From the IMG/VR virus record IMGVR_UViG_3300030102_003387, positions 1-51,760 of that record: a stretch of 51,760 nucleotides of DNA. One strand, 5' to 3'. This document shows, in pieces, positions 1,890 through 44,345 of the stretch (the first letter of the stretch is position 1; each line of letters starts with the position of its first letter). The DNA is from a virus. A program made the translations under genes and the position numbers. The notes beneath the pieces are model-generated. The model searched no databases, was not told the DNA's origin, and saw nothing but the letters and a program-made list of their open reading frames with translations.

Positions 1890-2354
1890 ATGAATTTAAA
1901 AATGTGGAACAAGTGGAAAGATTTTCGTCTAAATGAAGATTTAAAAGAAGATGGACATACAGACGTACCATCTGCAATTAGAAAATTAAAAACATCTATA
2001 GAAGATGCAAACGAAATTACACAAAAACTTCAGTCAATGTCAGATGAAGAATCTTTACCTAGTTGGTGGAGTGATAAGATTACATTGTCTGCAAACTATC
2101 TTAATAAAGCTCGTGATTACATTTTAAATCCAAATGAATCTGTAAATGAGAATAGGGAAATCGATAAAGTATATGGTGATTTCGAAGTTCTATTAAAAGA
2201 CTTTGAAAAAGAGTTTATTAGTTTATCAGCTCAAGCTGGAAGAGCAAACGATAATAAAGCGGATGAGAGAATTATGATAAAAACACTTAAAAAACATCTC
2301 CCCCCTCTTTACAGTATGGTTCGTTCTTGGAATAGGAGCAGTAAGCGTGATTAA
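1890..2354 (+). CDS. Putative capsid-packaged protein, 154 aa, family unknown
   Basis: A mostly helical, charged protein. The N-terminus (WNKWKDFRLNE, ending at residue 16) resembles a longer capsid-targeting leader ending in a gp21-type site L-N-E. The central part (about 25-80) contains DVPSAIRKLK and LPSWWSDKITLSANYLNKARDY, a helical motif I associate with hypothetical virion-linked proteins of other marine T4-like phages, though I cannot verify that here. It is first in the cassette behind a candidate late promoter. Its last codons overlap the start of the next gene: its TAA (2352-2354) lies inside the next leader. The function is unknown. Confidence 0.65.
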   Translation: MNLKMWNKWKDFRLNEDLKEDGHTDVPSAIRKLKTSIEDANEITQKLQSMSDEESLPSWWSDKITLSANYLNKARDYILNPNESVNENREIDKVYGDFEVLLKDFEKEFISLSAQAGRANDNKADERIMIKTLKKHLPPLYSMVRSWNRSSKRD

Positions 2355-2607
2355 GTTAAAAAAAATATTATCTGAACAAATAAAACCTGCTAAAAAGTCT
2401 GATGTAAAGAAGATGGAAAAGATGGCTAATAAGATTCTTTCAGATATGAAAAAACTTAATAAAATGTTTGAAAAACTTCATGACGCTCGAACTAGTAATC
2501 CAAGTGCATATCGTACATTAAAGGATTGGGAAATGGTACAATCTGATGCAAGTGGTCAATATGGTGGTTGGTTTGAGTATGTATATGATAGTGATAACGT
2601 GGAGTAA
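2347..2607 (+). CDS. Leader-tagged putative internal head protein, 86 aa
   Basis: It begins with MIKLKKILSE, exactly ten residues ending in L-S-E, which fits the (L/I)-x-E consensus of T4 gp21 and the ten-residue length of the T4 internal-protein leader. The start is GTG at 2347. The rest is a lysine-rich helical segment (about 11-55) and an aromatic C-terminal part (GQYGGWFEYVYDSDN). No enzyme motif is seen. It is predicted to enter the prohead core and be ejected with DNA; that role is inferred only from the leader. Confidence 0.65.
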   Translation: MIKLKKILSEQIKPAKKSDVKKMEKMANKILSDMKKLNKMFEKLHDARTSNPSAYRTLKDWEMVQSDASGQYGGWFEYVYDSDNVE

Positions 2608-2609
2608 TT

Positions 2610-3719
2610 ATGAGTAAAGTAAAAGAATTTAGAATACCTGCGGGTGAACAAAAATTAGTTTACCAATTCAAAGGATTTACAGCATCACAGATGGATGAAC
2701 TAGAAGCTATGTTATCTAGAGCAGGAATAGTTACTACACCTGACTTTAATAAAAGAACCATAACTACATATTCAAATAGAGATGCCATGAAGTTAAAAAA
2801 GAATAAGTCAATACAAAGATTTATAAAATCAAAAGGTGGAAAACAAATCAAAGAAGGAACTTGTGGTTACGGGTTAGATGGTAAACTTGGTGAAGAACCA
2901 GCCGGTCCCAATTTAAGAAAAAAAATAAAAGATATATCTAAAGATAAAAAAGAAAGTAGAAATAAATCTTTAGGTGAAAAAGATTTGATGAAATACTTAA
3001 TGAAAAGATTTAAGTTTAGTAAAAAGAAAGCAATTGATACTATGAAGAAAGCTGGATTCAATACTTCTATGTTAGATGAGAGACTTAAAAAAGGTCAAAA
3101 AATAATTGCAGTAAATCCTAAAGATAAAACACTAAAAGGAAAAGATGGAGTAATATATGATGTAGGTATAGGTAACTCTCAATCTTATATGGTACAGGTT
3201 GGAAAAGGAAAGAAAACTAGATTTGCAATTATGACTGATAAAGAAATAAAACTAAAAGAATCTGTATTTGATTTAGACGAAGCTTGTCAAAAAGGATATA
3301 TGACACATCCTACTCGTAAGACAAAGATTATGTTTGGTAAGAGATATAGGAATTGTGTAAAGAAAGAAGGAGTTGATACCACAATGACTTTGGAACAAGC
3401 TGGTAGGATTGTAGATAATATCTGTGTAAATTGTGGTGACTTTGCAAATGAAAATTTAAGAAAATGGTTTAAAGACCGTTGGGTTAATATTGGTAAAAAG
3501 AAAAAGGGTGGGGGACATCCACCGTGTGGTACAAGTGGTAAAAAAAGAGCGTATGCTAAATGTGTTCCAGCCTCTAAAGCAGCTCGTATGACAGATAAAC
3601 AAAAGAAAAGTGCAACATCAAGAAAAAGAAGAGCACAGAATAAAGCTAACAGAGGTGGTAAACAATCAGCAGGACAAGGTAAGAAACCAATATACGTTTC
3701 TACTAAACCAAAGAAATAA
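2610..3719 (+). CDS. Basic multidomain protein with a C-terminal Cys/Lys-rich domain (DUF5872-like)
   Basis: 369 residues, strongly basic. The N-terminal region (about 1-75) is a small alpha/beta segment; the middle (about 110-150) is a lysine-rich helical pair; about 155-215 resembles a small beta domain (QKIIAVNPKDKTLKGKDGV). The C-terminal approximately 90 residues (RKWFKDRWVNIGK, then HPPCGTSGKKRAYAKCVPASKAARMT and a Lys/Arg tail) match my memory of a small domain found in many phages and giant viruses (DUF5872 type), probably nucleic-acid-associated. A cysteine pair (ICVNCGD) is near residue 273. It has no ten-residue leader but sits inside the leader-tagged cassette. It could be a DNA-condensing internal protein; that is inference. 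Confidence 0.65.
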   Translation: MSKVKEFRIPAGEQKLVYQFKGFTASQMDELEAMLSRAGIVTTPDFNKRTITTYSNRDAMKLKKNKSIQRFIKSKGGKQIKEGTCGYGLDGKLGEEPAGPNLRKKIKDISKDKKESRNKSLGEKDLMKYLMKRFKFSKKKAIDTMKKAGFNTSMLDERLKKGQKIIAVNPKDKTLKGKDGVIYDVGIGNSQSYMVQVGKGKKTRFAIMTDKEIKLKESVFDLDEACQKGYMTHPTRKTKIMFGKRYRNCVKKEGVDTTMTLEQAGRIVDNICVNCGDFANENLRKWFKDRWVNIGKKKKGGGHPPCGTSGKKRAYAKCVPASKAARMTDKQKKSATSRKRRAQNKANRGGKQSAGQGKKPIYVSTKPKK

Positions 3720-3720
3720 T

Positions 3721-4434
3721 ATGATTAAGTTAAAAGATTTATTAACAGAAGCACCTAAGATTAAAAAAGTAAAGAATCTTTCAGTTCAGTATATGGATGC
3801 TGAATTTGTTGGTGATGTTGATTTTAGACCTGTCAGTAAAGCTTGGGTGTATAAAAAAGATAAACCGAAAAATAGTTATTTTTTAGTTGTTATAACTAAA
3901 ACGAAAAATAAATATGAAATAGATTTAGGTAAACACAAAAACTCTGAAAGTGCAAAGAAATTTGCTAGTGGGTATTTAAAAAGAAAATTTAAACCAATGG
4001 AATCTATTGAAGAAAGTGTATCTGGTGATATATTAAGACAATCAGCACCTGGTGGTTCCAAACAGTTTCTGAGAGATTTTGACAAAGTGTTTAAGAAGAG
4101 GTCTAAAGAAATGGGTTACGGTAAATTGGATAAGAACGTTCAGACTACTAATGTTCAAGTTTCTAAACCAGCAGGTTTTGATAAAGCCATAAAGTTTGAA
4201 AAGAGACAAGGTATAGAACTTAGTTATCAATTCGATGAAGGGGTAATACCAGGTAGACCATCTCGTAAGTATTCATTGGATGATTTCAAAAAAGATTTAA
4301 AAAAGTTCAGCGGATATAAAATACAACAGAATTTACCAGTAATATTTACCTTAACCAAAGGTAAATTTGTATATAGGGTATCCTATATCGGAGCTATAAG
4401 TGGAGTTTTTGTTCATGGGGGTACAAGAGTATGA
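3721..4434 (+). CDS. Leader-tagged putative internal head protein, 237 aa
   Basis: It begins with MIKLKDLLTE followed by A, the closest match in the window to a T4 capsid-targeting leader (ten residues, L-T-E then A). The ATG at 3721 is chosen over in-frame codons from 3610, which lie inside the upstream gene and would bury the leader. After the leader comes a small basic alpha/beta region, then a possible second cleavage area (PMESIEESVSG, about residues 94-104), then a Lys-rich C-terminal region ending in a hydrophobic strand pair (VIFTLTKG, VYRVSYIG). No known fold is assigned. Its TGA stop (4432-4434) lies inside the leader codons of the next gene. Confidence 0.7.
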   Translation: MIKLKDLLTEAPKIKKVKNLSVQYMDAEFVGDVDFRPVSKAWVYKKDKPKNSYFLVVITKTKNKYEIDLGKHKNSESAKKFASGYLKRKFKPMESIEESVSGDILRQSAPGGSKQFLRDFDKVFKKRSKEMGYGKLDKNVQTTNVQVSKPAGFDKAIKFEKRQGIELSYQFDEGVIPGRPSRKYSLDDFKKDLKKFSGYKIQQNLPVIFTLTKGKFVYRVSYIGAISGVFVHGGTRV

Positions 4435-4940
4435 TTAAACTAAAAGAAATAATCAAAGAAGGTAAGTATTGGGAAAACAGAGAATTTGGACAACCTCTAC
4501 CAAAACTCAGGTTGGAACAAGATGTCGATGATAAACCAGAAAATAAAATTCCATCACATTTCGGTAGTGGGAAGGAAATAACAGTAAAAGGTTACAAGAC
4601 GAAACACTTTGATATCTGTGCATCGGCCGTCAGTTTGTTTACAAAATTAGATAAAGTAGATAACGAAGAAGCTGATAAATACATAGTTGAAGCCGCAAAG
4701 GGTATGGATCACATTTTCGAGATGGAAAAAGCCGTTGTGAGAAGGGAAGCGTTGAATCACGACCCGATAAAACATGGAATAGAACTTACCAACAAAGTGT
4801 CATATCAGTTGGGGTATGTAGCTAAAATTATCGGTGATGATTTCATGGATGAGACACTATTTATACCTGACCACGTTATGGTCATGGTCAAAAGAATAGA
4901 CAGTATCAAGATAGATGATACGGAGAAGGATGATGATTAA
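4431..4940 (+). CDS. Leader-tagged putative internal head protein, 169 aa
   Basis: It starts MIKLKEIIKE, with I-K-E at positions 8-10, followed by G. Just after the leader it carries WENREFGQPLPKL, nearly the same as WNRKFGEPLPTL after the leader of the gene at 39260, so the two share a second short module. The remainder is acidic and helical (about 50-140), with no catalytic motif recognised. The start codon overlaps the upstream stop (ATGA), and its own TAA (4938-4940) lies in the leader of the next gene. Packaging in the capsid is inferred from the leader. Confidence 0.65.
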   Translation: MIKLKEIIKEGKYWENREFGQPLPKLRLEQDVDDKPENKIPSHFGSGKEITVKGYKTKHFDICASAVSLFTKLDKVDNEEADKYIVEAAKGMDHIFEMEKAVVRREALNHDPIKHGIELTNKVSYQLGYVAKIIGDDFMDETLFIPDHVMVMVKRIDSIKIDDTEKDDD

Positions 4941-5436
4941 ATTACAAGACCTACTTAAAGAAGAAAAAATAACAGAAGAAGCCGGTGTATTTAAAAACAA
5001 AGACGCCGACGCTTATCTGAAAGAACTACTTGATAGTTTAGGGGAACCCACTTATAAAAGTGAAAAGGAATACGGTTGGTACAATGTAACATTGAAAGAT
5101 CCCTATTATGTTAAAAACCTTGACAAGGTTTATGTCATAGATGAATCCATACCACACTCATTTCCTGCTGACCATAGAGATTTTTGTTATTCACAATATA
5201 CAGTACCAGAGTGGGCACCGAAAGAAGGTCAACACACAATTGATGCTCAGCTGTTTGAGGATTTTGCTAAGGTAACGGGTTCGATAATCATAGATGGACT
5301 GAAAGGTACTGTGACGGCTAGATGTGGTGATTTGGTGGCAAATGATGTTACGATAAATTTTGTTCTCGATGTGGTTGCTGGAAAGACAGAACCATCGAGA
5401 GATGAGTATAAAAAAAGAATATTAGCAACGAGGTAA
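4933..5436 (+). CDS. Leader-tagged putative internal head protein, 167 aa
   Basis: The leader is MIKLQDLLKE, followed by a second candidate gp21 site (KITEEAG, after residue 15 or 16). In-frame ATGs exist at 4915, 4930 and 4933; 4933 is chosen because GGAGAAGG lies a few bases upstream and it restores the ten-residue leader. The body is an alpha/beta protein of about 150 residues rich in aromatic and acidic residues (YGWYNVTLKDPYYVKNLDKVYVIDE). No family is recognised. It may be an inhibitor or modifier delivered on infection, but that is speculation. Confidence 0.65.
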   Translation: MIKLQDLLKEEKITEEAGVFKNKDADAYLKELLDSLGEPTYKSEKEYGWYNVTLKDPYYVKNLDKVYVIDESIPHSFPADHRDFCYSQYTVPEWAPKEGQHTIDAQLFEDFAKVTGSIIIDGLKGTVTARCGDLVANDVTINFVLDVVAGKTEPSRDEYKKRILATR

Positions 5437-5438
5437 AT

Positions 5439-5753
5439 ATGGACAAATACAATAAATCTGTACAACATAACTGATTTCATCACGCAACTTGGGGGGACTC
5501 CAAGTATAAAAGTGAAGGTGTGGGAAAGGTACTTTGGCATTCTTTAACAGAGGATGGTAAGGTCGAAATAGTAAATATTCAGTTCGGAGATAGTGTATAC
5601 GAGGGTGTAAGCGTCAAACATCTTAAACCTATCAAAATGGAAGCTCATGGACATCCAGCAGCAAAAGAAAAAGAAAAAAAGGTTGATGATGATGACAAGA
5701 ACGAAGTAAAAGAGATTACTATAAATGGAAAAAGATACAGAGCTGTTAAGTGA
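5439..5753 (+). pseudogene. Small gene interrupted by an in-frame TGA
   Basis: An ATG at 5439 with a good ribosome site (GAGG, 5 bases spacing) opens a frame that hits TGA at 5472 after 11 codons. The same frame then continues to 5753. Read through, it runs YNKSVQHN-stop-FHHATWGDSKYKSEG and on into VGKVLWHSLTEDGKVEIVNIQFGD, a plausible continuous small beta domain ending in ITINGKRYRAVK. A TGG-to-TGA change (Trp) would explain it. Alternatively, translation restarts at GTG 5520 (77 aa), which has a poorly spaced ribosome site. TGA is used as a normal stop elsewhere (for example 1196-1198 and 7564-7566), so the code is not reassigned. It could be a true nonsense mutation, a base-call error or programmed readthrough. 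Confidence 0.5.
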
Positions 5754-6540
5754 AAAAAGCTGGAGTAAAAGGTACAAGAAAAGTATAGATTGTAATAATC
5801 CGAAAGGATTCAGTCAGAAAGCACATTGTGCAGGAAGAAAGAAAAGGGAGAGTAAAATGAGTTCAAAGTTAGAAGAGTTGGTAGGTAAACCAATTACAGA
5901 AGAACAATTTGATGAAGCAGCTGGTAAGAAAGATGCTTGTTATCACAAAGTTAAAGCTCGTTACGATGTATGGCCATCAGCATACGCAAGTGGTGCTCTC
6001 GTAAAGTGTCGTAAAGTCGGTGCAGCTAATTGGGGAAACAAATCTAAGAAAGAAGGTTTGGGTGACAGAATGTCAAAGAAACTCAAAAAGCTCAAAGGTG
6101 TAAATCTAAAAAAGAAAAAAATTAAACTAAAAGGTAGAGGAGTCTATCAAGATTATGATGGATTAAAAGAAGACGTTTTTATAGAAACAAATACCAATGG
6201 TAAATTAAAAACAACTCACGTATATTACGAATCAGACGGTAAGGGTTACGGATACACTCTTGAGTTTGTAAACGAATTAAACGAAGCTGAATATCAAGGT
6301 CGTAAGGTAAAACTTGGTAAAGTCATGCAAGGTGATGTTAAGAAGTTTAAGGTATATGTAAAGAACCCAAAAGGTAATGTTGTTAAGGTAAACTTTGGAC
6401 AAGGTGGTGACGCTAAAGGTGGAACTATGAGAATCCGCAAGTCTAATCCTAAAGCTAGAGCTAACTTCAGAGCCAGACATAATTGTGACAATCCAGGACC
6501 AAGACATAAAGCTCGTTATTGGTCTTGTCGCAAATGGTAA
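5725..6540 (+). CDS. Multidomain Cys/Lys-rich protein with a leader-like N-terminus, 271 aa
   Basis: The first ten residues are MEKDTELLSE, ending in L-S-E exactly where a capsid-targeting leader ends, which supports the ATG at 5725. Three short domains follow that I recall as widespread in phage hypothetical proteins: KRYKKSIDCNNPKGFSQKAHC (about 15-35), DACYHKVKARYDVWPSAYAS (about 70-90, continuing to GALVKCRKVGAANW), and a C-terminal basic domain (about 188-271) ending in ARHNCDNPGPRHKARYWSC. A perfect candidate gp21 site, L-N-E then A, lies at residues 185-188, directly before the C-terminal domain, which could thus be released. Paired Cys/His residues suggest zinc binding. The gene overlaps both neighbours. 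Biochemical function is unknown. Confidence 0.65.
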   Translation: MEKDTELLSEKSWSKRYKKSIDCNNPKGFSQKAHCAGRKKRESKMSSKLEELVGKPITEEQFDEAAGKKDACYHKVKARYDVWPSAYASGALVKCRKVGAANWGNKSKKEGLGDRMSKKLKKLKGVNLKKKKIKLKGRGVYQDYDGLKEDVFIETNTNGKLKTTHVYYESDGKGYGYTLEFVNELNEAEYQGRKVKLGKVMQGDVKKFKVYVKNPKGNVVKVNFGQGGDAKGGTMRIRKSNPKARANFRARHNCDNPGPRHKARYWSCRKW

Positions 6541-6677
6541 ATCATCTCAAAGATAATAACTTAGGATATTGGGAACATTGGTGGAGAGCTATGAAGTTAA
6601 GTGGAGCTCTATTTATTCATGCGTTCTTACCTGATGTTCTAACTGATTACGCATCTAAGGAACTTAATGATGATTAA
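6534..6677 (+). CDS. Small protein, 47 aa, DUF6356-like
   Basis: A short frame that overlaps the previous gene by 7 bases and the next gene's leader by 8. It encodes MVNHLKDNNLGYWEHWWRAM, then KLSGALFIHAFLPDVLTDYA and a short acidic tail. The pattern of an aromatic YW-HW helix followed by a hydrophobic LFIHAFLP segment matches small phage and bacterial proteins of the DUF6356 type, as far as I recall. One hydrophobic segment (about 21-34) suggests membrane association. The function is unknown. It fills what would otherwise be a gap between two cassette genes. Confidence 0.6.
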   Translation: MVNHLKDNNLGYWEHWWRAMKLSGALFIHAFLPDVLTDYASKELNDD

Positions 6678-7566
6678 GTTAAAAGATTTACTAAACGAAG
6701 AGTGGTTAACACATAAAGGTAAAACGATGTGGTTTCCAGCTCATACCAAGCCTACTATAGATTGGATATCAGGTGGACAACATGTTGCTCTTTATCCTAA
6801 ACAGATAGAATCATTGTTTGGAAAACAACCTATAAGTTCATTTCATGTTACATCACCAGAACATCTAAGACAATTAGGTAAGATAATCGGTAAGAAAAAA
6901 ACCATATCAACATTTACTCGTGCTAATAACGATTCACCATTGGCAAAAGGTAGAGGTATTCAGACAGGCCTTGGTGGTATTATATTTTATATGAAAGGAA
7001 CATTGTTAGCAAAGAACTATATGGACTTTGAAACAAAACCTGATAAGACAGGTCGTAGATGGGTTGAAGCTCATTACTTTACAAAGGATAGAATGAAGTT
7101 TTATAGGGCTATGAAGAAAGGTGGTATTGTAAAAAAAAGACAAAAGTTTTTTGATGATATATATGATGTAAAACAAAAGTATGAAAAACAATGGATGGAT
7201 GGTGATATTGAATATGATGACTACCATAAACGTGTGGAAAAAGAAAGTGGTGTTTTTATAAACAAGTTTATCAAAGATTTCTTTGATTGGCAAAATAAAT
7301 ATTTAGAAAGAAACAAAGCAGCTATAAAAAAGTTTCTTAGAACACCAGACGACAAACCATCTGCTTGGTGGAACGAAGCATTAATATATGATACTAAAGT
7401 CATAGATGCTTTTGTAATGAGTAGGATAACAAAATCTCCTGAATGGGAATACAAACATAAAAAAGAAATGTTAAAATATGTTCCTGAAAGTAAAATAACT
7501 ATAGGAACACCAAAAAAGTTTAGAGATTGGTACAAAGCTAGAGAAGGTATAATAGACCAGATATGA
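6670..7566 (+). CDS. Leader-tagged protein, 298 aa, possible ADP-ribosyltransferase-like fold
   Basis: It starts MIKLKDLLNE followed by E, a clean ten-residue leader. ATG 6670 is preferred over ATG 6667 because AAGGA lies 7 bases upstream of it. After the leader, residues about 55-130 (FHVTSPEHLRQLGKIIG, KKTISTFTRANN, GIQTGLGGIIFYMKG) form a pattern seen in many leader-bearing phage proteins. The strand ISTFTR following a helix resembles the STS strand of ADP-ribosyltransferases, and T4 packages its own ADP-ribosyltransferase, Alt, by such a leader. The C-terminal half (about 140-298) is Lys-rich and helical. A clear catalytic ExE is not seen, so the enzyme call is weak; the packaging call rests on the leader. 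Confidence 0.65.
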   Translation: MIKLKDLLNEEWLTHKGKTMWFPAHTKPTIDWISGGQHVALYPKQIESLFGKQPISSFHVTSPEHLRQLGKIIGKKKTISTFTRANNDSPLAKGRGIQTGLGGIIFYMKGTLLAKNYMDFETKPDKTGRRWVEAHYFTKDRMKFYRAMKKGGIVKKRQKFFDDIYDVKQKYEKQWMDGDIEYDDYHKRVEKESGVFINKFIKDFFDWQNKYLERNKAAIKKFLRTPDDKPSAWWNEALIYDTKVIDAFVMSRITKSPEWEYKHKKEMLKYVPESKITIGTPKKFRDWYKAREGIIDQI

Positions 7567-8348
7567 TTAAGTTAAAAGACGTATTATTATTAGAAAACGA
7601 TAGTAAGGACAGAGGTGGTGTCTTGTACTCTTGGAATGGTAAGTATTTACTATGTAAAGGAGAAGCATCTGGTAAATGGCATGTACCGAAAGGTCACATA
7701 AAAGAAGGTGAATCTCCGTTAGAAGGCTCTGTTCGAGAGTTTTTAGAAGAAACTCAAATATCATTACAAGGAATACCAAAACTATTAGATTCTTGGAATA
7801 ATAAAGGTGGAAAGTTTTATTTATATTCACTAAAAGGTACGAAGAGATTAGTGCCTAGATTAAATCATGAACACACAGATTGGGGATACTTTTCTTCGTA
7901 TGAATTACCATCACCAATGAACAAAGATATTGAAAAAATTATAAAACAAAAACATGGTATTTCAGAAACGTATTATGGTACAGTTATGAGAAATGTATTA
8001 TTAGAAAGAGTTGACTATTATGATACTGCACAACAACTCGTAAAACAATACGGGTTAAAATCAAAAATAAAAATGGGTAGAGGTAAAGACTTTGGTGAAT
8101 ATGTACCTGAAACAGACACCATAACTTTACGACCATCATATCCTAATATAAAAGAATTTTTAATGACCATATTACACGAAATAGGTCACGCGTTAGACGC
8201 TAAAAGATTGGGTGTAAAAAAATATATAAAGAAGTATACACAGGCTGGAACTATGGCTACGTATCATGGTTTAGATCCTCATGACGATAATAAGTGGGAA
8301 GAAAAAGCAGAAAGGTTTGCTAGAAAAGAATTATCAAAGTGGTTGTAA
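7563..8348 (+). CDS. Leader-tagged Nudix hydrolase fused to an HExxH metallopeptidase-like domain
   Basis: 261 residues in three parts. Residues 1-11 are a leader (MIKLKDVLLLE). Residues about 15-130 are a Nudix domain with a complete Nudix box: G44, E50, R58-E59 and E62-E63 in KGHIKEGESPLEG and SVREFLEETQI; only the late Gly is replaced (Q65). Residues about 150-261 contain HEIGHALD (H205, E206, H209), the zinc motif of gluzincin-like peptidases, with E247 or E250 as a possible third ligand in a WEEKAERFA helix. A gp21-type site, L-L-E at 146-148, falls exactly between the domains. Nudix enzymes hydrolyse nucleoside diphosphate-linked substrates (including NAD, ADP-ribose or capped RNA); the substrate here is unknown. 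The inference is that both enzymes are packaged and perhaps separated. Confidence 0.8.
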   Translation: MIKLKDVLLLENDSKDRGGVLYSWNGKYLLCKGEASGKWHVPKGHIKEGESPLEGSVREFLEETQISLQGIPKLLDSWNNKGGKFYLYSLKGTKRLVPRLNHEHTDWGYFSSYELPSPMNKDIEKIIKQKHGISETYYGTVMRNVLLERVDYYDTAQQLVKQYGLKSKIKMGRGKDFGEYVPETDTITLRPSYPNIKEFLMTILHEIGHALDAKRLGVKKYIKKYTQAGTMATYHGLDPHDDNKWEEKAERFARKELSKWL

Positions 8349-13027: not shown

Positions 13028-13169
13028 AGTATAATATCCTTTTTGTACATTTTTGTTTTATTAGTTCTTCTAACAGAGCATACATTTTGTATCCATGATG
13101 TTTAGAATAATCTTTTAACATATCACGATACTCTTCTCTAATTTTTATATTTACAAATTTATCTTCCAT
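13014..13169 (-). CDS. Small ribbon-helix-helix-like DNA-binding protein (minus strand)
   Basis: The only convincing minus-strand gene. It encodes 51 residues: MEDKFVNIKIREEYRDMLKD, then YSKHHGYKMYALLEELIKQK and a basic tail. A short strand (FVNIKI), a helix, a turn with Gly, and a second helix (MYALLEELIKQ) fit the Arc/MetJ ribbon-helix-helix fold. A GTG at 13184 (complement of 13182-13184) would add five residues and has AAAAAGGA at proper spacing, so it may be the true start. The 3' end overlaps the convergent gp47-gp46 fusion by 14 bases. The rest of the 248-base gap up to 13276 holds only its upstream region and the fibre promoter. A repressor role is inference. Confidence 0.55.
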   Translation of the reverse strand: MEDKFVNIKIREEYRDMLKDYSKHHGYKMYALLEELIKQKCTKRILYSNQK

Positions 13170-13240
13170 ACTTATAATTATCACTTACATCCTTTTTACC
13201 TACTTTTTAGATACTTTTAATTTATAATTTTGTCTTGTAG

Positions 13241-13248
13241 ATATTTAT
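13241..13248 (+). promoter_or_regulatory. Candidate late-promoter element ATATTTAT
   Basis: ATATTTAT, preceded by GTAG, lies 27 bases upstream of the giant fibre start. It is in the gap between this start and the minus-strand small gene, where a divergent promoter region is expected. The ribosome site is probably the AAGG at 13260. Confidence 0.4.
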
Positions 13249-13275
13249 ACTTGATATATAAGGATTTTATCATCT

Positions 13276-16200
13276 ATGGGATTTTTACCTAAACGATTAA
13301 CACTACAAAACTTAGACCAAGTTAGTGTCTTTATTGAAGATACAAATAACGAATATTTTAATGTACAAGAAGTACCTGAGACAATAACGCAGGGAAGATA
13401 TGCATTCAAAGTATTTGGTTCTGATTTTTTACGTGAAGGTATAGAATTAAAATTAGAACTTTTAGATTTTGAAGGTAATACCATATATCTAACTCCTGTT
13501 GATTTTATAGGAGAAGAAGTTCCACCATATGTTCCATATCGATATGTAACTATAGAAGTATACTCACCACCAATAAACGTTGCTGGATTAGCAACACTAA
13601 CTATCTTAGGTGAAGTAAATCCAGACATAGTTGATGTTCCAATAGAGTTTCAAAATGCTTATAATGTTAGATATCAAAAAACTATAAACGTTGATTTATC
13701 TTCTACGATAAACACACAACCTATAAGATTCTTTAAAAACCCAACCACAGAGTTTGAAGAAATAGTACAACCAAAAACAGTTTTAACTCCTGTAAGTGAA
13801 TCTATAGTAATATCAACAGGACAAGGAATACCACGTTCAGACTTAAAGGGTAAAACTATAGAGATACAATCTGGTAGTTTAGAAAAAGAGGCACTACCAA
13901 ATGAGGTATCAGATACATTCAAAGACCTTAGAAGATTTAAGGATGAGTATAAATATAAGACAGGACTTAGAGGTAAAGTTCCAGCCATAATAAAAAGACG
14001 AGGATTGTCTAGAAGATTTGCTTCTTTAGAAGAACCAAAATTTAAAATAAAATCAGATAGTGCTGTTTTCAAATCTGATATGCAAGGTGGAACTATAGAA
14101 ATACCTGAAAGGACCGTGACGATAGTAAAAACAGATTCACAGACAGGTCGTGCGATAGAAGAGGTAGTAACTGTACCTAAGTTCAAAACAAAAATATTAG
14201 AGGTAATAGATGAGAACACGATAGTTCCTGAAGAACCACCAACCGTACCATTACCAACAGGAAGTCAGCCTGTAGGAACTGATATACAAGAAGTTACCAT
14301 AGAAGATTTTTCAAATACACCAATAACAGCTTCATTTAATGTTACCGATACATCACCATCTCAGTCATCTGTTCATTTTGATTCTATGTTAGATTTAACA
14401 ATAAAAGATATGAGAACTTTTTCAGGTGACATTTATAGAATTAGAGTACATGGAAATAGTGAAGCTGCTGGTAATGATTTTACAGTTTTATCTGATGTAA
14501 TAGTAGAGTCTCCTGAACTTTTAGTTGATAAGGATTCTTCATCTGGTACATTAAGAACTGGATATTTTATAAATCAAAGTCACATAAACACGTATTGGAA
14601 TACATTTTCAATAAACGAAAGTGTAAAAAGTACAAAAGTTTCTGCAACACATACTGGTAGTCAATTCATTGACTCGTTACTAATAAGTGGTTCTACTTCT
14701 GGTTTGAATGAGAGTGTCGTTATAGAAACAAAACCGTTGAAATCATTTACATTGAGGAAAGATGTTGCTTACACTTTATCTGCAAAAGTAAAAGGAAAGA
14801 CCACACAAAAAGTAATATCATCAGATGGTTCAAAGTCTAGAAAAGGTAAACTGTTTTTTCATTTGTCTGGTTCAAATCTTAATACATCTCAAATAATAAC
14901 ATCACATACAAACTTTGGTTCTGAGTTAACAGATGAAGCCACAAGTGAACCAGTTGTACTACAACTAGATGAAGATGTAGATGGTATACAAAACTTTGAA
15001 ACCATAGAACATACGTTTAAACCTAGATTTAAACTAGACAAAACTGTAAGTACTGATACAATTTTACAAATAAGAGCAGAATCTGGTGAATGGTTTATTA
15101 GTGACATATCCCTAAGACCAGCGATGGACACTGGTTTTTCACCTGATGAGTTTAATCTAAAAGTTCCGATACCTCGTTCTACTAGACCTGATAGATTTGA
15201 TTTTTTAATAGAATATTTTGATATAAATAATAATGTAGCTGAAACTGTAACCGTTTTACAAGATGTACCAATATCAGGATCGGCTTTGGTTATAGATGGA
15301 GATGGTAATCTACTAACTGGTTCAATGTTTATGGGTAACGCACTCGATTCTGGTATTGAAATGGCTGGTGTAAACTCTGCATTTATGAGGTCAGTTGGGT
15401 ATGAAGGATTTGAAAGTGCTTCTTTAGCTGGTAAGGGTGGATTCATGATATTTAGTGGTTCTGTCTTACCAGATGCACCTGATAATTACGAGGGTGCTGG
15501 TATAGAAATTCATGACGGTGTAATTGGAGATGATGAAAGTTTTTTAAAGTTTAGAACAAATCCATCTGTATTCGATGTAAAAACATCTAAATTTTTCTTA
15601 GGTGGTTCAAATCAATTCATTAGTGGTTCGAATGGAAACATAGAGATAAGTTCTAGTAAGTTTCATATTCAACCTGATGGTGATATTGTAGTTAGAGAAA
15701 TACAAGCTGATACTGGTACTGTTGGTGGATTTGATATTGATGATGGTTCATTAAAGGCTGGTACTGGTAATAGTGCTATAACAATGAGTGCAACAGAAAA
15801 AATTATATCAATGGGAAGTGGTTCTACTTTTGATAAGGGCAGTCTACAAGGTGGTTTCAGAGTAGGTATTGATACAGATGGTCAGTTTAAATTTGCTATT
15901 GGAAATGCTGGTTCATTTATTCATGCAGATGAAAGTGGTGTAAGTATTAAATCTGATAGTTTTGTTGTTACTGCTTCAGTTGCAGAAATTGATGTTGATG
16001 TATATAAATTAAGTGCTAATAACTTATTTATAAGTTCAAGTGGTGGTGGTTTTATATCTGCTGGTAATCCAAGACCTACTGGTATTAATGGTACGAACAA
16101 GGGAATATTCCTAAGAGGTAATCCAGCTGCAGCATTAATAGGTGATGCAAATGGTAGTCATATCAAATTTGATGGAACAACTACAAGCATAAGTTCATCT

Positions 16201-19200
16201 GAATTTGTATTGGGTGGTTCTGATAATTTTATAAGCGCTTCACTTGGAAATATTAAGATATTTAATACTGGTGAAACTACATTAAGTGGTAGTTCTGTAA
16301 ACATACAAACTCCTAAATTTTTCTTAGGAGGAAACTCTCAGTTTGTTAGTGGTTCAAACGGTAACGTAGAAATAAGTTCATCAAACTTTCATCTTGATAA
16401 CGATGGAAACGTTACAATGCAAGGAACTATAACTGCAACAGCAGGTGAGATTGGTGGGTTCTCCGTAACCGATGATGCTTTATCTTCAAATAACTTTTTA
16501 ATTAGTGGTTCTTCTACTGGTAATAATTTCTTTATATCTTCATCTAACTTCAATGTTAAAGCAACAGGAGACGTAACTGCATCAGCTTTAGATTTAACTG
16601 GTGGTTCTGTAGGTGGGTTGACAGTATCAACTGGAGTGGTATCTGTTGGTGAAATATTAAAACTAAAAGATAGTGGACAGATAACTGGTTCTCAAGTATT
16701 ATTTACAGGTGGTAAGATTGGTGGTTTCACAGTAGATTCTGATGAAATAAAAACTACAGAATTGTTGATAGATTCTTCTAATCAAAGAATTACACTTGGA
16801 GCATCAAACTCTATAAAATTACAAGGTGGTTCTGATAGTTTTATTTCAATGGGTAATAAGTCTACCTTTTCAAATGAAGGAACAGGAACCTCTGGTATCA
16901 TTATCGGTATGGATTCTACAAATCCACAAGCAGAGTTTGTAAAAGATGCCAATAATTATTTTATATTTGATGACGGTATCGACATTAAAACAGACACTTT
17001 ACGGGCTAGTGGAAGTAACATTGTTTTAGAAGCTCCAAGATTTTTTCTTGGTGGTAATACAAATTTTATTAGTGGTTCAAATAATAATCTAAGAATATTT
17101 AGTTCAGGTAACACAACACTTAGTGGTAGTCAAGTAAGAATAGAAACTCCTAAATTTTTTATGGGTGGAACTCAACAGTTCTTAAGTGGTAGTAACGGTA
17201 ATTTAGAGATAAGTTCAAGTGGATTTCATTTAACACCACAAGGAGATGTTTCTGCTAGTAATATACTTTTAGGTAATAAATCAATCGGAGACTTCTTGGA
17301 GTTTGTTGACGGTGTATTGACCGTACAAGGTGAAGTATCAGCAAATGCTATAAATACTCCTGCGTTAGCACCAACACCAAGTGCTTCAATAACTGCAGAC
17401 GGATTTGCTAGTTTTGTTTCTGCATCTATTGCTAATTTTGAGGTATCAACCGATGAAATAAAATCATCCAATGAAAGTTTAAGACTAAAATCAGGTGGAC
17501 AAATTACAGGTTCAAACGTATTATTTAGTGGTGGTACAATAGGTGGATGGACTATTAATTCAACTAACTTTGCAAGTTCAGGTGGTGGTGGAATCAGACT
17601 TAATTCAAACGGAAATAATGCAGAGATATCTATAAACTCACACTCCTTTGGAAATGAAGGAATACAATTAGGATTTAATAGTGGAGCTCCAAGATTCTAT
17701 GTTGGTGATGGTGGCCAGAACTTTTTGAAATACACAACAAGTGGTGGTGTGGATATCAAAACAATTAAATTTGAATTAGATACACCTGGTCTTGAAATAT
17801 CATCGGCAGTGCCTTCTATGTCTTTAGGAACAAGTCAAGAAATAATGATGAGGGGTGTAAGTAATAGTCCATATATTGCGTTACAACCAAGTGTAGCTCT
17901 TGTAGATAAAGCTTTTGGAGAAATAGGAGTATTCTTTGGAGTAGCGGGAGGTTCAACACCATTGTTTTCAGCAGTGGGTAGTGGTGGTCATTTAAAATTT
18001 AACGGAAGTACCATTGATATTAACACTAATACTGCTGTTATAAGTGGTAGTTCAATTAGATTAGAGACACCAAAATTTTTCTTAGGTGGTAGTGGACAAT
18101 TTGTAAGTGGTTCAAATGGAAACGTAGAAATAAGTTCTTCTAATTTTCATTTAGATAATCAAGGTAATGTTGTCATGTCTGGTAATATTACAGCCACAAC
18201 AGGTGATATTGGTGGTTTTACAATTGGTGACGATTTATCAAATAGTGGTGGTTCGACTTTAAAATTAAAAGGTAGTAGCGGTCAAATTACAGCGTCAGCT
18301 GCTCAGATTACAGGAGATATAACTGCTAATACGATTACAGCAAATACTGCTGGTACAATTGCTAATTTTCAAATAAGTTCAGCTGAAATAAAATCATCTA
18401 ATAATATATTAAGACTAAAGTCTAACGGTCAAATATCGGCATCACAAGCACAAATTACAGGAAAGATTACTGCAACAAGTGGTCAAATAGCTGGATTTAC
18501 GATAGACGGTAATCAATTAACTGCTACAAATTTTGCTTTAGATGCTAGTGGTAAATCAATTTCTTTAGGAACTGGAGATACAATTTTTATAGCAGATGCA
18601 GATACTGGTATTCAACTAGGAGACTCTACGTTTGCTGATGCACCATTTAGTGTAACTACTGCTGGTGTTTTAAAATCTGTGTCTGGTACTATAGGTGGAT
18701 GGACTCTTGGTTCTAATACAATAGTTGGTAATAATTTAACTTTAAATTCAAGTGGACTTATTGAGACTAATGATTTTGCTAGTGGAGTTAAAGGATTTAG
18801 ATTAGATTCATCTGATAATGGGACTGCTGAATTTGAAAACATATCTATTCGTGGTACTTTAAAAACAACTGTGTTTGAAAAAGAAACTGTAAACGCCGTT
18901 GGTGGTCAACTATATGTTGCTAACTCAACCACATTGACTGGTTCATTGGCTATTTCAGCGAGTGCTGCAACAATGAGTGTTGTGAATGTAAGTGGTTTTA
19001 CTGGTAGTTATAGTAATGATGGTGAGATATTAGTTGCTAAAAAGATTACAGATACTGGTTTTTCAACAGAGTATATTTTAGTACAAAGTGCATCAAGAGA
19101 TGAACCAAATAGTGATACCAATTTTGCTGGTAAACTATATGTTGTTAGAGGTTATAATAGTGGTAGTAGTGGTGACTTTTTAGGGGATAATGCAAATCAA

Positions 19201-22200
19201 TCACAATCACTTTCACCAGGTCAAGTATTAGCTTCTACTGGTAGAATAGGAACTGGTTATATAAGACTAAATGCAAATCCAAACGATACAACAACACCTT
19301 TCATAGACATTGTTGAAAGAACTGGTAGTGGAGTTTATGATGTAGATTTAAAAGCTAGACTTGGTGATTTAAGTGGACTAAGTACGGATAGATTACATGG
19401 TACAAATCCTGCAAATGCTGGTTTTGGTTTATATAGTCAGAATGTTTTTCTAGAGGGTGGTATAGTTGCAAACACAGGTTCTATTGCTGGAATAGAAATG
19501 GAATCTAGTAAACTATATACTGGTACAGGAACTCATGGAAACTCTAATACTGGATTTTATATAGATAGTGGTAGTAAATTTAGTTTAGGTGATAAGTTAG
19601 TTTGGGATGGTAGTACCTTAACAGTAGAAGGAGCTATTAATATAACAGGTGGTGGAGCGGTTGCAGACCAATTAGCTGCATTAAATACAGCAACTGGTTC
19701 TTTACAAAATGATATAAATACCGTTGAATCAAATGTATCTGGTGCTTTTACAGAAGCTTCATCATCTTTAGCATCCGATATTGTAACTGTGGAGTCTAAC
19801 GTATCAGGTGCATTTACATCAGTTTCAGAATCAATTGCAGAAAAGTTAATCACAGATTCAAAAGGTTTGTTATTAGACATACCAAATTCACCAAGTGGAC
19901 AAGGACTATTTTTAAACCATCCTTACATGGGATTCTACGATAACTCTGAGTTCACCGCTTTTATTTCTGCTAGTGGTGGTTTCTTATTTAAAGCAGATGA
20001 CAATAATCTTATATCATTTGGACAATCTGTAACTGGTGGTGATGGTTTATCAACCAAGTCGTTTGTTCTTAAATCAGACAATGTTTTCTTGAGTGGTTCA
20101 AAAGTAAATATTTTAGGAGAGAAATTTTTCTTGGGTGGACAATCTCAATTCGTAAGTGGTTCAAACGGAAACATAGAGATAAGTTCCTCTAATTTTCATT
20201 TGGATAGATCTGGTAATGTAGATATGTCTGGTAAGATTACTTCTACAGAGGGTACTATAGGTGGTTTTGATATTGGTTCAACTCAAATATCTAGCTCTAA
20301 TGGTGGGTTGATATTAAATGCAGATGGTGGTATTACTGGTTCTAAGTTTAAGTTAGAAGGTGGTATTATTACTGCTGATGTTACGATAGAAGGTGACTTA
20401 TCAGCTAATAGTATTTCAACACCAACTGGTGGTTCACCTACAGCACAAATTACTGCACAAGGATTTGCAAGATTTGTCTCTGCTTCAATAGGTGGGTTTA
20501 ATGTTTCTGATAATCAAATCAATGATAATGATGAAGATTTGGTATTAAAGTCAACTGGTGAGATAACTGCTTCTAACGCACAGATTTCAGGTGATATAAC
20601 GATAACTGGTGGAAGTGCAAAATCACACCTAGAAGCTCTAGGAGAACAAACTGCATCATTAGATTCTAGTATAGAAGCCTTAGGTCAAACCACAGCTTCA
20701 TTGAATAGTGCTACTGCATCATTACAGAGTAATATAGATACAGTCGAAACAAATGTATCAGGTGCTTTTACAGACACTTCTGCTTCTATAGCTTCATCGG
20801 TAAACACGGTACAGAGTAACTTAGATAGTGGACTAGCTTCTGTTAGTTCATCTGTATCAGGTGCATTTACATCTACATCAGCTTCAATAGTATCTACGAT
20901 TACAGAAGTTTCCTCATCAACTGTAGAGAGGATAATGACAGATGCAACTGGTTCAATATTACAAGTGCCACCCTCACCCGCGGGAAGTGGACTGTATCTA
21001 AACTTTCCACATTTAGGATTTTACGATGGTGCAGAACCATCTAGTACAACGTATACAGTTACAGCACCAGGTGGTTCGGGTGGTGGATATTATATAGATG
21101 GTGTTCAAAGAGCAACAGTAGAATTACAAGTTGGTTACACATACAGATTTGATACTTCTGATGGTAGTATGGGTAGTCATCCATTTAGATTTTCAACAGA
21201 TTCTGGTAATAGTTCACAATACACAACTGGTGTTACCGTTGGTAGTGGGTATGTAGATATAATAGTTACTTCAAGTACACCATCAACTCTATATTATTAT
21301 TGTACAAATCATGGTGGAATGGGTGGACAGGTGAATGTCGTGGATAATTCAGAATATAAAGCTTTTATATCAGCATCTGGTGGATTTTTATTCAAAGCTG
21401 ATAATAATAACTTAATATCATTTGGACAGAGTGTAAGTGGTGGAGATGGAACCGATACAAAATCATTTGTTCTTAGGTCTGATAACGTATTTCTTAGTGG
21501 TTCTAACGTAAATATTTTAGGAGAAAGATTTTTCTTAGGTGGTTCAAACCAATTTGTTAGTGGTTCAAACGGAAACATAGAAATAAGTTCTTCAAAGTTT
21601 CACGTACAACCAGATGGTGATGTGGTAATGAACGACATAACTGCATCCAACGCTTTAATATCTGGTAACATAACAATAACTGGTGGTAGTGCTAAACAAC
21701 ATTTAGAAGCCTTAGGTGACCAAACCGCTTCACTTGATTCTAGTATAGAATCTTTAGGTCAGACAACAGCATCATTAAATAGTGCAACCGCTTCATTACA
21801 AAGTAATATAGATACGGTTGAAGCAAATGTGTCTGGTGCGTTTAGTGAAACATCAGCTTCTATAGCTTCAGATATAAACACCGTAGAGACTAACGTATCA
21901 GGTGCATTTACCGCTACGTCAGAATCAATAGCAGAAAGATTAATTACAGATTCTAAGGGACTGTTATTAGACATACCAAATTCACCAAGTGGAGAGGGAC
22001 TATACTTAAATTATCCATATGTAGGATTCTATGATGCACCAACAATTACTGATACCACATATGTAGTTACAGCTCCAGGCGGTTCGAGTGGTGGATACTA
22101 CATAGATGGTGTTCAAAGAGCAACAGTAGAATTACAAGTTGGTTACACATATAGGTTTGATACATCTGATAGTTCAAATGGTGGTCATCCGTTTAGATTT

Positions 22201-25122: not shown

Positions 25123-25151
25123 TCAAAGGTTAATAGTAAGGAGTAAAAAAA

Positions 25152-27440
25152 ATGGCAGATTATCCATTTAAAATAAATATACAAACAAAAGACGGAAGTA
25201 AATTTTCATATTACACCTCTAGTTTTGCAACTGATGCGACTGGAGCGTTAAGTGCATCTGTTGTAGAAAATATTATTTCAACAGATCTACGTGCGGTTCA
25301 GTATACTGAGAGTATTGATGCACCATCTGCAGATGTGGCTGCAGATCATTTTGGCCATTCATCAGGTGGAGGAGTATATCTCTCAACATCAGTATCTGGT
25401 CCAAATACAGGTAGTATTATTTTTACTGATACCGAAACTACAACAAATGGGGGATTAGACCATTATATTTTTTACGGAACCAAAGTTTGTTCTGTTTTAG
25501 GATTACCAGAAGGAATAAAAATAAGACCTGAAACCTTTAGATTTTCAGATGATGACAATAATCCTGATAACTACATGTCTGGTGATTTAATATCAGATAG
25601 TATACAACTAAAACAAGGTTTTAAGATGGCACCACAGGCTCGTATGCAAAGTAACTTGGTTTGGGATGATTTAAATGGTGAGGGATTTATACAATGGGTA
25701 AGTGGTAGTAAGAGAAGAGCTTTTATGGGTTACGATGAAACTAAAGACTTATATTCTCTATTAGTATCTCAAATAACAGGTTCAACCGTAAAAGCAACAA
25801 CCTTTACTGGTGCTCTTGCTGGTAATGCTACTAGTGCTACAACTGCTACAAACTTGTCTAATGGTACAGTATCACTTGGTCTAACCCAATCTGGTCCTGA
25901 TAGTCCAGGTTTTGTTTTTAAAATATCGACATTAGGTAGTCAAACAGGCCTAGATGATAATGCAGTTCCTGAAGCTCAATATCCAATTGTAATATCGGGC
26001 TCTAATAATGGTGTAGGTCATGGTGGTGATATAATTTTACAAGGTGGTCACAATCAACTACATAGTGTTGGAAATGTTAGAGGGGGTAACATTACAGTTA
26101 GACCAGGTACTACAGGATTAGGTCAAGGTGGAATTGGAAGACCAGGATTTTTCTCAGATGGAAAGTTTGTAGTCAGCGGTAGTTCGGAGATTACTGGAGA
26201 TATAACAGGAAGTGGTAATTTATCTATAGGCGGAACCTTAAATGGTAGAACCATATCAACACTACTAGATGGTACAAACGGAACTGATAATGAGATAGCA
26301 GTGTTCACAGATGCAAACTCTGTGGAAGGTGATGCTGATTTTACTTGGGATGGTGATATACTTAATATAAAGTCAGGTACATCATCTAGACCTCAGGTAA
26401 TTATAGATAATAGTAATAGTAATGCAAATGGTGCACAGCTCATTATTCAAAAATCAACAACTGGTGAGGCTGATAATGATTCTATTGGTAACATAATATT
26501 TCGAAGTAATAATAGCTCTCATGCTATTCATTCTATCTGTAGGATAAATGCTACCGTAAGGGATGTATCAGCTGGTACTGAAGATGGTGAGATGGTATTT
26601 TACGCTCATGTAGCTGGAACAGAAACGGATATCTTAACCTTGGCTGATGGTACAGGAGCAACATCTTACTTTAGTAATCCACTTGGTGTAGGAGCTGCAG
26701 TTTCAACTGGTACTCTTTACATAAAACCAACATCTCAACAGAGAGCTAGTTTAGCTGCAGCTGTAAATAGAGGTTTACATTTATCAACTTTTAGTGATGT
26801 AAATGCAAATGATGAATTTTTTCCACCGGTAGTATGGCATTCTAACGATCCTGATTTGGATTCTGGTTATGATAATGTTGCTTTTATAACAGCTATAGCT
26901 CATGATGCTCACAATGGAACTACTAATAGGTCAAAGTTAATTTTGGGAACTGCAAATAATTCTACAGGTATGACAGAACACTTTAGAATTGACTTTGATG
27001 GGACTCTAACTGCTACGGACACAACTATCTCTAGTAACTCTGATATAAGAACTAAAACTAATATAGTAGATTATACAGGACCTACAACAGGTTCGATGTC
27101 AGGTTCCACATCTTTAGAATTGATAGAATCATTGAATATGAAACACTTTGAATATAATGGTGACTATGGTTCTATAAAGGGTAAAAAGAGAGCTGGTGTT
27201 ATTGCACAAGAGATAACAGGTTCAGTTCCTTACATAGTAACTTCTGATAACCATCGGATAGATGAAAATTGGTACACAGAAAATGAAGATGGTAGTAGAG
27301 TTATGGTTACACCCACTGGTTCTATGACAGAAATATACAATGTTGCTTTAGGAGATTTAGTACCAGATATGATAAATGCTATAAAAGATTTGTCTCAACA
27401 GGTAAAAGAACTAAGAGCACAAATAAGTGGGAGTGGATAA
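25152..27440 (+). CDS. Tail fibre with C-terminal S74 intramolecular chaperone, 762 aa
   Basis: The N-terminal about 220 residues form a non-repetitive domain (IQWVSGSKRRAFMGYDETKD near its end). The middle is a Gly/Ser/Thr/Asn-rich beta fibre (GNATSATTATNLSNG and similar). The last about 140 residues are an endosialidase-type chaperone (peptidase S74): SNSDIRTKTNIVDY with the likely self-cleaving Ser before Asp-Ile-Arg (about residue 630), then KRAGVIAQEITGSVPYIV and a C-terminal helix. Such domains help a fibre trimer fold and then cut themselves off. A GGAG precedes the ATG, 30 bases after the giant fibre stop, so it is probably co-transcribed and may be the distal partner of that fibre. 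Confidence 0.85.
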   Translation: MADYPFKINIQTKDGSKFSYYTSSFATDATGALSASVVENIISTDLRAVQYTESIDAPSADVAADHFGHSSGGGVYLSTSVSGPNTGSIIFTDTETTTNGGLDHYIFYGTKVCSVLGLPEGIKIRPETFRFSDDDNNPDNYMSGDLISDSIQLKQGFKMAPQARMQSNLVWDDLNGEGFIQWVSGSKRRAFMGYDETKDLYSLLVSQITGSTVKATTFTGALAGNATSATTATNLSNGTVSLGLTQSGPDSPGFVFKISTLGSQTGLDDNAVPEAQYPIVISGSNNGVGHGGDIILQGGHNQLHSVGNVRGGNITVRPGTTGLGQGGIGRPGFFSDGKFVVSGSSEITGDITGSGNLSIGGTLNGRTISTLLDGTNGTDNEIAVFTDANSVEGDADFTWDGDILNIKSGTSSRPQVIIDNSNSNANGAQLIIQKSTTGEADNDSIGNIIFRSNNSSHAIHSICRINATVRDVSAGTEDGEMVFYAHVAGTETDILTLADGTGATSYFSNPLGVGAAVSTGTLYIKPTSQQRASLAAAVNRGLHLSTFSDVNANDEFFPPVVWHSNDPDLDSGYDNVAFITAIAHDAHNGTTNRSKLILGTANNSTGMTEHFRIDFDGTLTATDTTISSNSDIRTKTNIVDYTGPTTGSMSGSTSLELIESLNMKHFEYNGDYGSIKGKKRAGVIAQEITGSVPYIVTSDNHRIDENWYTENEDGSRVMVTPTGSMTEIYNVALGDLVPDMINAIKDLSQQVKELRAQISGSG

Positions 27441-32062: not shown

Positions 32063-32070
32063 GAGTTATA

Positions 32071-34198: not shown

Positions 34199-34212
34199 TA
34201 TAGAGGTATAAA

Positions 34213-37413: not shown

Positions 37414-37602
37414 ATGCCTTTTGAAGATAAAAAGAAATCCTATATGGATACTCTTTTTAGTATTGCTACATTGTTAAAGAGATGGCAAGTAGAAATACAA
37501 AATAAAGATGTAGATAAGAATTATATGTTAAGAAGACTTAACCAATGGATAGAACAATTGGAAAGTCTTAAACACGAAATAATGATGGGAAGAGATAAAT
37601 GA
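37414..37602 (+). CDS. Small helical head-cluster protein, 62 aa
   Basis: A 62-residue protein predicted as two amphipathic helices (KKKSYMDTLFSIATLLKRWQ and MLRRLNQWIEQLESLKHEI). No domain is recognised. GGTTTAGAG precedes its ATG, and its stop overlaps the next start (ATGA). The T4 core protein gp67 is of similar size and sits in the same region, but gp67 is strongly acidic and this is not, so no equivalence is claimed. Confidence 0.55.
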   Translation: MPFEDKKKSYMDTLFSIATLLKRWQVEIQNKDVDKNYMLRRLNQWIEQLESLKHEIMMGRDK

Positions 37603-42678: not shown

Positions 42679-42702
42679 GACCTCGGTGCAGTCGAGAAAT
42701 TG

Positions 42703-44313: not shown

Positions 44314-44345
44314 TGTCTGTTAGGACTGTACTTTAGGTACGATCT

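Follow-up and report, generated by a model that had tools for sequence, protein, structure and literature searches.

The viral contig IMGVR_UViG_3300030102_003387 of the IMG/VR collection (51,760 bases, hereafter the window; completeness as a genome not established) contains 46 genes, seven of which begin with nearly the same short leader, MIKLKxLLxE, in front of mostly unrelated proteins. This leader is very probably the modular capsid targeting sequence (CTS) of the phage's lineage, cleaved by a gp21-type prohead protease and loading the head with many proteins, probably enzymes that act early. A sequence-only reading of the window had proposed a T4-like capsid-targeting leader. At the level of sequence, this proposal is supported by the presence of gp21 and gp23 in the fragment, by conserved leader positions equal to those of T4 and a stop of conservation after Glu10, by the agreement of the proposed cut, (L/I)-x-E, with the T4 gp21 motif, by about 99 unrelated bodies behind the leader, and by leader exchange on one body, which in cultured T4-like phages stands behind T4-dialect leaders.

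In the translated reading frames of the window, the strict pattern M-I-(K/R)-L-(K/Q)-x-(L/I/V/F)-(L/I/V)-x(1,2)-E was matched by 7 of the 46 genes, exactly those that had been named before, each with the leader at its start. All seven lie on the plus strand; below, genes are designated by their first position and ↓ marks the proposed cut. Six are grouped in one cassette: 2347–2607 (GTG start; leader MIKLKKILSE↓ at 2347–2376, followed by a 76 aa body also found in locus L256), 3721–4434 (MIKLKDLLTE↓ at 3721–3750, 227 aa body with leader-bearing relatives in L025, L042 and L091), 4431–4940 (MIKLKEIIKE↓ at 4431–4460, then a second element and the body), 4933–5436 (MIKLQDLLKE↓ at 4933–4962, then the body), 6670–7566 (MIKLKDLLNE↓ at 6670–6699, 288 aa body of the 'WYPAHT' family, with an extra ATG at 6667) and 7563–8348 (MIKLKDVLLLE↓ at 7563–7595, a Nudix hydrolase joined to a zincin-like metallopeptidase). 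The seventh, 39260–39610 (TTG start; MIKLKKILNE↓), lies directly downstream of gp21. The description of a cassette of leader genes holds for the six strict carriers, but 2610, 5520 and 6519, which are interspersed among them, lack the strict leader. For the closing (L/I)-x-E of the leader, residue 10 had been named, with residue 11 in a single case; Glu11 was indeed found only in 7563.

Position 4 is Leu in all seven leaders and position 7 is Leu, Ile or Val. Of 200,000 random N-termini assembled from the N-terminal residues of the phage itself, not one matched the strict pattern, and the same was true of a pool of body residues. Pattern-blind all-versus-all scoring of the gene N-termini gave 18 high-scoring pairs, against 0–1 in three internal-segment controls, and these pairs form a single cluster consisting of exactly the seven strict-leader genes. 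The bare (L/I)-x-E motif ends at residues 8–20 in 19 of the 46 genes and, being so common in the window, is no evidence by itself. A late promoter motif, TATAAATA, was considered near the cassette and dropped (17 matches on both strands versus 9.4 expected, with no clear placement at the leader genes).

The leader is the top direct-repeat family of the cassette, and the likeness of 4431 and 39260 extends beyond the leader, as would be expected if these were recent gene duplicates, or if a recombination element acted at the DNA level at gene starts, the peptide likeness being a relic. However, the DNA of the leaders is only 70–78% identical, the bodies match one another only by short weak hits, high DNA identity spanning the leader and the untranslated flanks, which several gene pairs should then show, is absent, and the peptide is kept with synonymous changes in a family diverged down to 26% identity, which makes this explanation extremely improbable. 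The bodies, described earlier as unrelated, mostly are so, except that 4431 and 39260 have in common the 13-residue element W-x-R-x-FG-x-PLP-x-L just behind the leader (E 0.004). The form (K/R)xFG(E/D/Q)PLP(T/K)L directly follows the leader in about 20 proteins, some of them with differing bodies (window 4431–4940 and 39260–39610; L035, L041, L053, L056, L065, L070, L091, L104, L202, L239, L256 and others); this element would remain on the mature protein.

The 6670 family, which was collected mainly through its body and not its leader, allows selection on the leader peptide to be assessed. All full-length single-domain members carry the leader, including MVKLKDL and VIKLLDL variants, and in 19 aligned members M1, K3, L4, L7 and E10 are invariant, while residues 11–20 are variable with insertions and deletions. 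Among 16 leaders, codons 3, 4, 5, 7, 8 and 10 show 247 synonymous versus 30 nonsynonymous pairwise differences, and codons 11–12 show 10 synonymous versus 199 nonsynonymous; identity between family members goes as low as 26%. The synonymous turnover in the leader codons thus indicates selection that keeps the peptide and ends sharply after Glu10. In mutational work on the T4 CTS, residues 4 and 7 were assigned to targeting and residues 8 and 10 to processing, with the motif L/I-x-E (PMC9026906); the conserved leader positions 4, 7, 8 and 10 are these same positions. The structure model of 6670 is confident (pLDDT 88), with leader residues 1–8 at pLDDT < 50. A search of the model against PDB and BFVD returned no match at E ≤ 0.001, and the body has no relative among cultured phages. 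An ADP-ribosyltransferase (ART) fold was considered for 6670 and rejected on the structure comparison; one weak ADP-ribosyltransferase-like hit (E 0.64) was not used.

The genome is AT-rich (GC 0.30–0.37), and AT-rich codons favour MIK starts; the leader might accordingly lack any targeting role and be a by-product of start regions in which initiation of translation benefits from Lys/Ile-rich N-termini. This idea retains almost no credence, being largely refuted by the codon differences described above, with L4, L7, L8 and E10 conserved amid synonymous turnover, and by scrambling: a scramble of the same composition is far rarer than the leader, which was also never drawn from the N-terminal residue pool.

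In 2.9 million IMG/VR viral contigs, a degenerate DNA pattern encoding MIKLKxLLxE was scanned for, with the same codons in scrambled order as a control. At least 120 loci were found, nearly all of them heading real open frames, versus 25 loci for the scrambled control in the whole collection. Among the matches listed, to which the following counts also refer, PF03420 (gp21) was present in 26 of 41 leader records versus 2 of 25 control records (Fisher p 7e-6, or 4e-4 with records of at least 20 kb only, both tallies coming from partial records). The major capsid protein gp23 was present in 21 of the 41 leader records, 20 of which also have gp21. Such co-occurrence is also expected from shared ancestry, and it supports the link without proving it. 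At least 221 leader proteins (duplicates counted, and with overlapping loci) fall into at least about 99 unrelated body families, of which 65 are singletons. When the scan was run without the Glu requirement, most long frames kept E10 (a tally that mixes loci of both scans), and several of the frames lacking it have (L/I)-x-E a few residues further on, for example MIKLKELLKLDE↓, MIKLKDLLTLRE↓ and MIKLKDLLNPPVLNE↓. The exact leader strings had no match in the literature, which says little, since papers rarely print such strings.

The proposed protease is encoded within a head cluster of T4 type, whose gene order is also T4-like: terminase (32618), portal-like protein (34213), gp21-type protease (38648–39259), probable scaffold (41506) and gp23 (42700). 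The prohead core serine protease of the S77 type (38648–39259, plus strand; PF03420, E 1.8e-30; phrog_207, E 8.1e-55) is the proposed leader-cutting enzyme. The major capsid protein gp23 (42700–44313, plus strand; PF07068, E 1.2e-75) has a candidate processing site, ...ENQARQLIDE↓SS; in the general form ENQARQ(L/I)(I/L/V)xE↓ this site stands at the expected place of the precursor and is kept in all compared relatives but RM378. The probable gp22-type scaffold (41506–42678, plus strand) was assigned by position and sequence character, with no family match. By gp23, the nearest cultured relatives are Microcystis phage Mel-JY01 (55%), the Flavobacterium phages immuto (52%) and Rhodothermus phage RM378 (37%).

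Further evidence comes from the exchange of leaders on one body. Gene 27944 (27944–32062, plus strand) encodes a 1372 aa multidomain protein with the variant leader MDKLTEWLTKPFLEEDILNE↓ and the junction ILNE↓GARDPGIF, in which a zeta-toxin/polynucleotide-kinase-like AAA_33 domain is followed by a cytidylyltransferase-like (NMNAT-type) domain (PF13671, PF06414 and PF01467). The kinase domain has a G(A/V/I)xDPGI-type start, which in relatives is preceded by at least 12 leaders, every one ending in Glu, among them ...EEDILNE↓, MDKLTEFLIKPFLTE↓, MIKLMDLLNE↓, MIKLVDLLNE↓, MIKLKDLIQLNE↓, MIKLIDLLNE↓, MIKLKDLLNPPVLNE↓, MIKLKDLLMENIDE↓, MIKLKEILKE↓ and LQEQMIAE↓, as well as internal ISE↓, LKE↓ and IAE↓ in fusions. 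A tblastn search with this domain returned 183 records of cultured phages, and those opened were T4-superfamily phages (Straboviridae and Kyanoviridae) and the T4-related jumbo phage Atu_ph07. Here the same body follows T4-style leaders, including the form MKSFKQF...LTE↓ in Klebsiella phages (the junctions being MKSFKQFTESTLTE↓ALITF in Klebsiella phage P-KP2 and MKSFKDFVSLDE↓ALITF in RB43), or other leaders ending in LxE, as in Melnitz (MKTFAELQE↓G) and HTVC008M (MIPFILKE↓G). As a yardstick, matches to MK(S/T)(F/Y)(K/Q)(E/Q)F in T4 are confined to ipI, ipII, ipIII and gene 61.1, and the backward pattern has none. The 54-residue product of gene 61.1 (NC_000866.4, 18966–19130) starts with MKTFKEFIKE↓, a good T4-type CTS. 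Leader exchange on one body is no more than suggestive of a leader that might suffice for packaging; it fits the description of the leader as a transferable tag.

The same exchange bears on the possibility that the leader, as a cleavable tag, directs proteins elsewhere, for example to a tail-associated compartment, the host membrane or a partner protein, gp21 co-occurrence reflecting T4-type ancestry only. Some leader records have no detected gp21, and co-occurrence is a lineage association and not a functional test. Nevertheless, the leader matches the T4 CTS at positions 4, 7, 8 and 10, its sequence has no long hydrophobic core of a secretion signal, and in T4-like phages the same kinase body carries a T4-dialect leader, so that another destination is very unlikely.

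The slot between endolysin and terminase, which in the window (27461–34213) is occupied by the single 1372 aa kinase/nucleotidyltransferase protein, contains separate leader-type genes in L264 (2135–9071), including those for a Nudix protein, an NMNAT-like protein and a relative of 6670. In L097 (minus strand), the P-loop region of the kinase domain looks to be interrupted by an intein-like insert.

The protein encoded by 7563 contains a Nudix domain (PF00293, E 5.7e-11) and a zincin-like domain (PF18818, E 0.0035, below Pfam's cutoff; the match to MPTase-PolyVal scores 17.9 bits against a cutoff of 27.5). Between the two domains lies an internal candidate site, NVLLE↓RVDYYD, at residues 148/149. 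In 56 of 56 distinct relatives, the window included, this junction before R(V/I/M/A)D has Glu at P1, P3 is Leu in 48, Val in 5 and Ile in 3, and P2 is free. The junction is kept in stand-alone proteins (MIKLSQLLLE↓RIDY) and behind other upstream domains (MGYLLVE↓, MNNLLLE↓ and ENKLNE↓). As judged from sequence, the conserved junction fits a retained gp21 site that would split the fusion. In the structure model of 7563, only the zincin part is of good quality, and the junction falls in a low-confidence stretch, so that an exposed cleavage site is neither proven nor excluded by the model. The zincin domain has no relative among cultured phages.

Variant leaders had been suggested for four further genes, and those of 1890, 27944 and 40539 are supported by relatives, while that of 5725 is weaker. 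In 1890 (1890–2354, plus strand), ...RLNEDLKE↓ precedes the conserved body DGHTDVPSAxRK, where relatives have IKE↓DGHTDV or IIE↓DGHTDV in place of LKE↓DGHTDV. In 5725 (5725–6540, plus strand), the possible leader MEKDTELLSE↓, the weakest of the variants, stands before the conserved body KxWSKxYKKSIDC (here LLSE↓KSWSKRYKKS). Elsewhere in the window, a single open frame of 3948 residues (13276–25122) with repeated FFLGGxxQFVSGSNGNIEISSSxFHL units probably encodes a long tail fibre or tail appendage protein, and 1195–1848 encodes a protein that is unusual in a phage, a membrane protein in which a cyclic-nucleotide-binding domain (PF00027) is accompanied by a Popeye-domain-like match (PF04831).

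Most representatives of the 99 body families have no Pfam match; the matches found, with one or two members each, include ART-PolyVal, NUDIX, AAA_33/zeta, HD, GNAT, phage lysozyme, LysM, phosphoribosyltransferase and MPTase-PolyVal, among others, and those to ART-PolyVal occur only in leader proteins of relatives. The leader could instead target the prohead core mainly for head assembly, the tagged proteins being not ejected effectors but scaffold or core parts that are cleaved and then lost or else retained as structural components. This view draws on the many bodies without an enzyme match and on tagged genes of the head cluster. Gene 39260 lies directly behind gp21. The protein of 40539 (40539–41189, plus strand), a possible prohead core protein, has the variant leader KIKLKNLLEE↓NFSG and belongs to a family located in the gp21–gp23 head cluster of relatives (Mel-JY01 locus L220 and loci around gp21). 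The head-cluster protein encoded upstream of gp21 (37599–38648, plus strand) has the junction MKILESYTRMAKQLIVE↓QEVDDDKIIKYKDK, and its relative in L107 begins with MIKLKDLLTE↓IDDEKIIKYKDK. Nevertheless, Nudix, zincin, zeta/polynucleotide-kinase-like, ADP-ribosyltransferase, GNAT, HD, lysozyme and phosphoribosyltransferase bodies are unlike scaffold proteins, and so many families, 65 of them singletons, are unlike conserved assembly parts; a role mainly in assembly is thus rather unlikely.

Several observations weigh against a capsid targeting sequence that loads ejected cargo. The tagged head-cluster proteins (40539 and the L107 relative of 37599) point to a use of this tag for core proteins as well, and since the tagged set includes likely core assembly proteins, not every tagged protein need be ejected. 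About one third of the leader records, probably mostly fragments, have no detectable gp21, and a phrog_207 search of these records found no additional one; record G008 has gp23 without detected gp21, the 207 kb record G024 has neither, and the partial records limit both gp21 tallies. The junction Glu in the kinase and zincin proteins could have a structural role in these domains. Finally, no virion proteomics was found, either for the phage of the window or for other phages of the MIKL dialect.

This kind of system is known from T4; as far as could be found, the novelty lies in the dialect, in how broad the cargo is and in the possibility that tagged fusions are split. As in the T4 CTS of IPI, IPII and IPIII, which is cut by gp21, a leader of about ten residues with hydrophobic positions 4, 7 and 8 and (L/I)-x-E at 8–10 stands before unrelated bodies, and the genome encodes a gp21 S77 protease. 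Unlike in T4, the leader is MIKLKxLLxE and not MKTYQEFIAE, and there are fused cargo proteins with internal candidate sites. The cargo of T4 consists of the three internal proteins and the CTS-like gene 61.1, whereas here a fragment of 52 kb has seven strict carriers, and in related contigs the MIKL leader heads about 99 body families. In T4, IPI is an inhibitor of a restriction system, and one E. coli strain can be infected only with the help of IPIII, which probably counters a defence (PMC9391042); by analogy, the cargo of the present phage would come into play against the host early on. Some leader bodies of relatives match ART-PolyVal, and Atu_ph07 has ten tandem ART-like proteins, which recalls Alt, the head-packaged ADP-ribosyltransferase of T4; however, no tagged protein of the window has an Alt-family match, and the leader dialects differ. 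Injection together with the DNA is predicted for the polyvalent proteins of phages (Iyer et al. 2017, PMC5512222), and their domain repertoire overlaps with the leader cargo in ART-PolyVal, MPTase-PolyVal and GNAT. Two or more effector domains in one polypeptide were found in 27944 (zeta/AAA_33 and cytidylyltransferase-like) and 7563 (Nudix and zincin-like), but the cargo is mostly single-domain, each protein with its own leader. Inner-head proteins of phiKZ and SPN3US are likewise cut after Glu by a gp21-like protease; however, their propeptides are long, more than 100 residues in several SPN3US proteins, and are cut at (S/A)-x-E or A-x-E (PMC5694885), unlike the leader of about ten residues and its (L/I)-x-E motif.

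Other leader dialects were observed in related phages. In Atu_ph07 (L347/L358, record 41844–49507), about ten tandem related genes, CDS 53–62, start with M(K/R)WxxL(N/T/I)E (in a narrower form, M(K/R)WxQL(N/T/I)E). Their products are read by us from sequence as ADP-ribosyltransferase-like, most having a YRG(M/I) motif, and CDS 53 also carries the kinase domain described for 27944. Virion proteins of Atu_ph07 identified by mass spectrometry are encoded mostly in three clusters, one of which is CDS 31–76, with 29 identified there (PMC6102473); CDS 53–62 fall inside this cluster, the gene numbering having been checked against gp4, gp5 and gp70. Record G026 (L236 and L239) contains a cluster of MIRLKxLLxE-type starts and a second shared start, MLRFGTKNLSE. 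The (M)(L/R)RFGTKNLSE motif occurs on several genes in L236, L239, L037 and L105, sometimes directly behind MIKLKN(I/L)LAE, as if leaders were stacked. In immuto (L221), MKKSQLRQIIKE-type and FDLKKFLVENKLTxNSxxLxE-type starts, on about four genes each, are candidate leaders of another dialect (repeated gene starts within 2250–3315, 3762–4310, 13144–13902, 17587–18887 and 23311–25424).

A broader reading, held tentatively and somewhat below even chances, is that T4-superfamily phages have a general exchangeable loading code with lineage dialects (MIKLKxLLxE, MIRLKxLLxE, MKTYQEFIAE, M(K/R)WxQL(N/T)E and possibly LRFGTKNLSE and FDLKKFLVENKL...), such that any protein gaining such a leader may become head cargo, and that gp21 may split tagged polyproteins into several effectors inside the prohead.

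Targeting, packaging, cleavage after residue 10 or 11, retention, ejection and early action in the host are inferred by analogy with T4. During assembly of the prohead core, leader residues such as 4 and 7 would bind the core or scaffold, drawing the tagged protein inside. The protease gp21 (38648–39259) would then cut after (L/I)-x-E at residue 10 or 11 and free the mature protein, which would remain in the head with the DNA and probably enter the next host along with it. The leader is modular, the same cargo bodies standing behind different dialects in different T4-superfamily phages, and in head-to-tail fused cargo with a conserved (L/I/V)-x-E between domains, gp21 may also cut the tagged polyprotein.

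Proteins that enter the cell with phage DNA decide the first minutes of infection and the contest with host defences, and for uncultured phages this injected set is mostly unknown. A leader that can be recognised by eye marks it, providing a list of injected candidates with predicted mature N-termini, in at least about 99 cargo families among the matches listed, most of them without known function. The existence of dialects allows one to ask whether the leader evolves together with the prohead core or gp21, and if the loading code is indeed general, the ejected effectors of uncultured phages could be listed from sequence alone.

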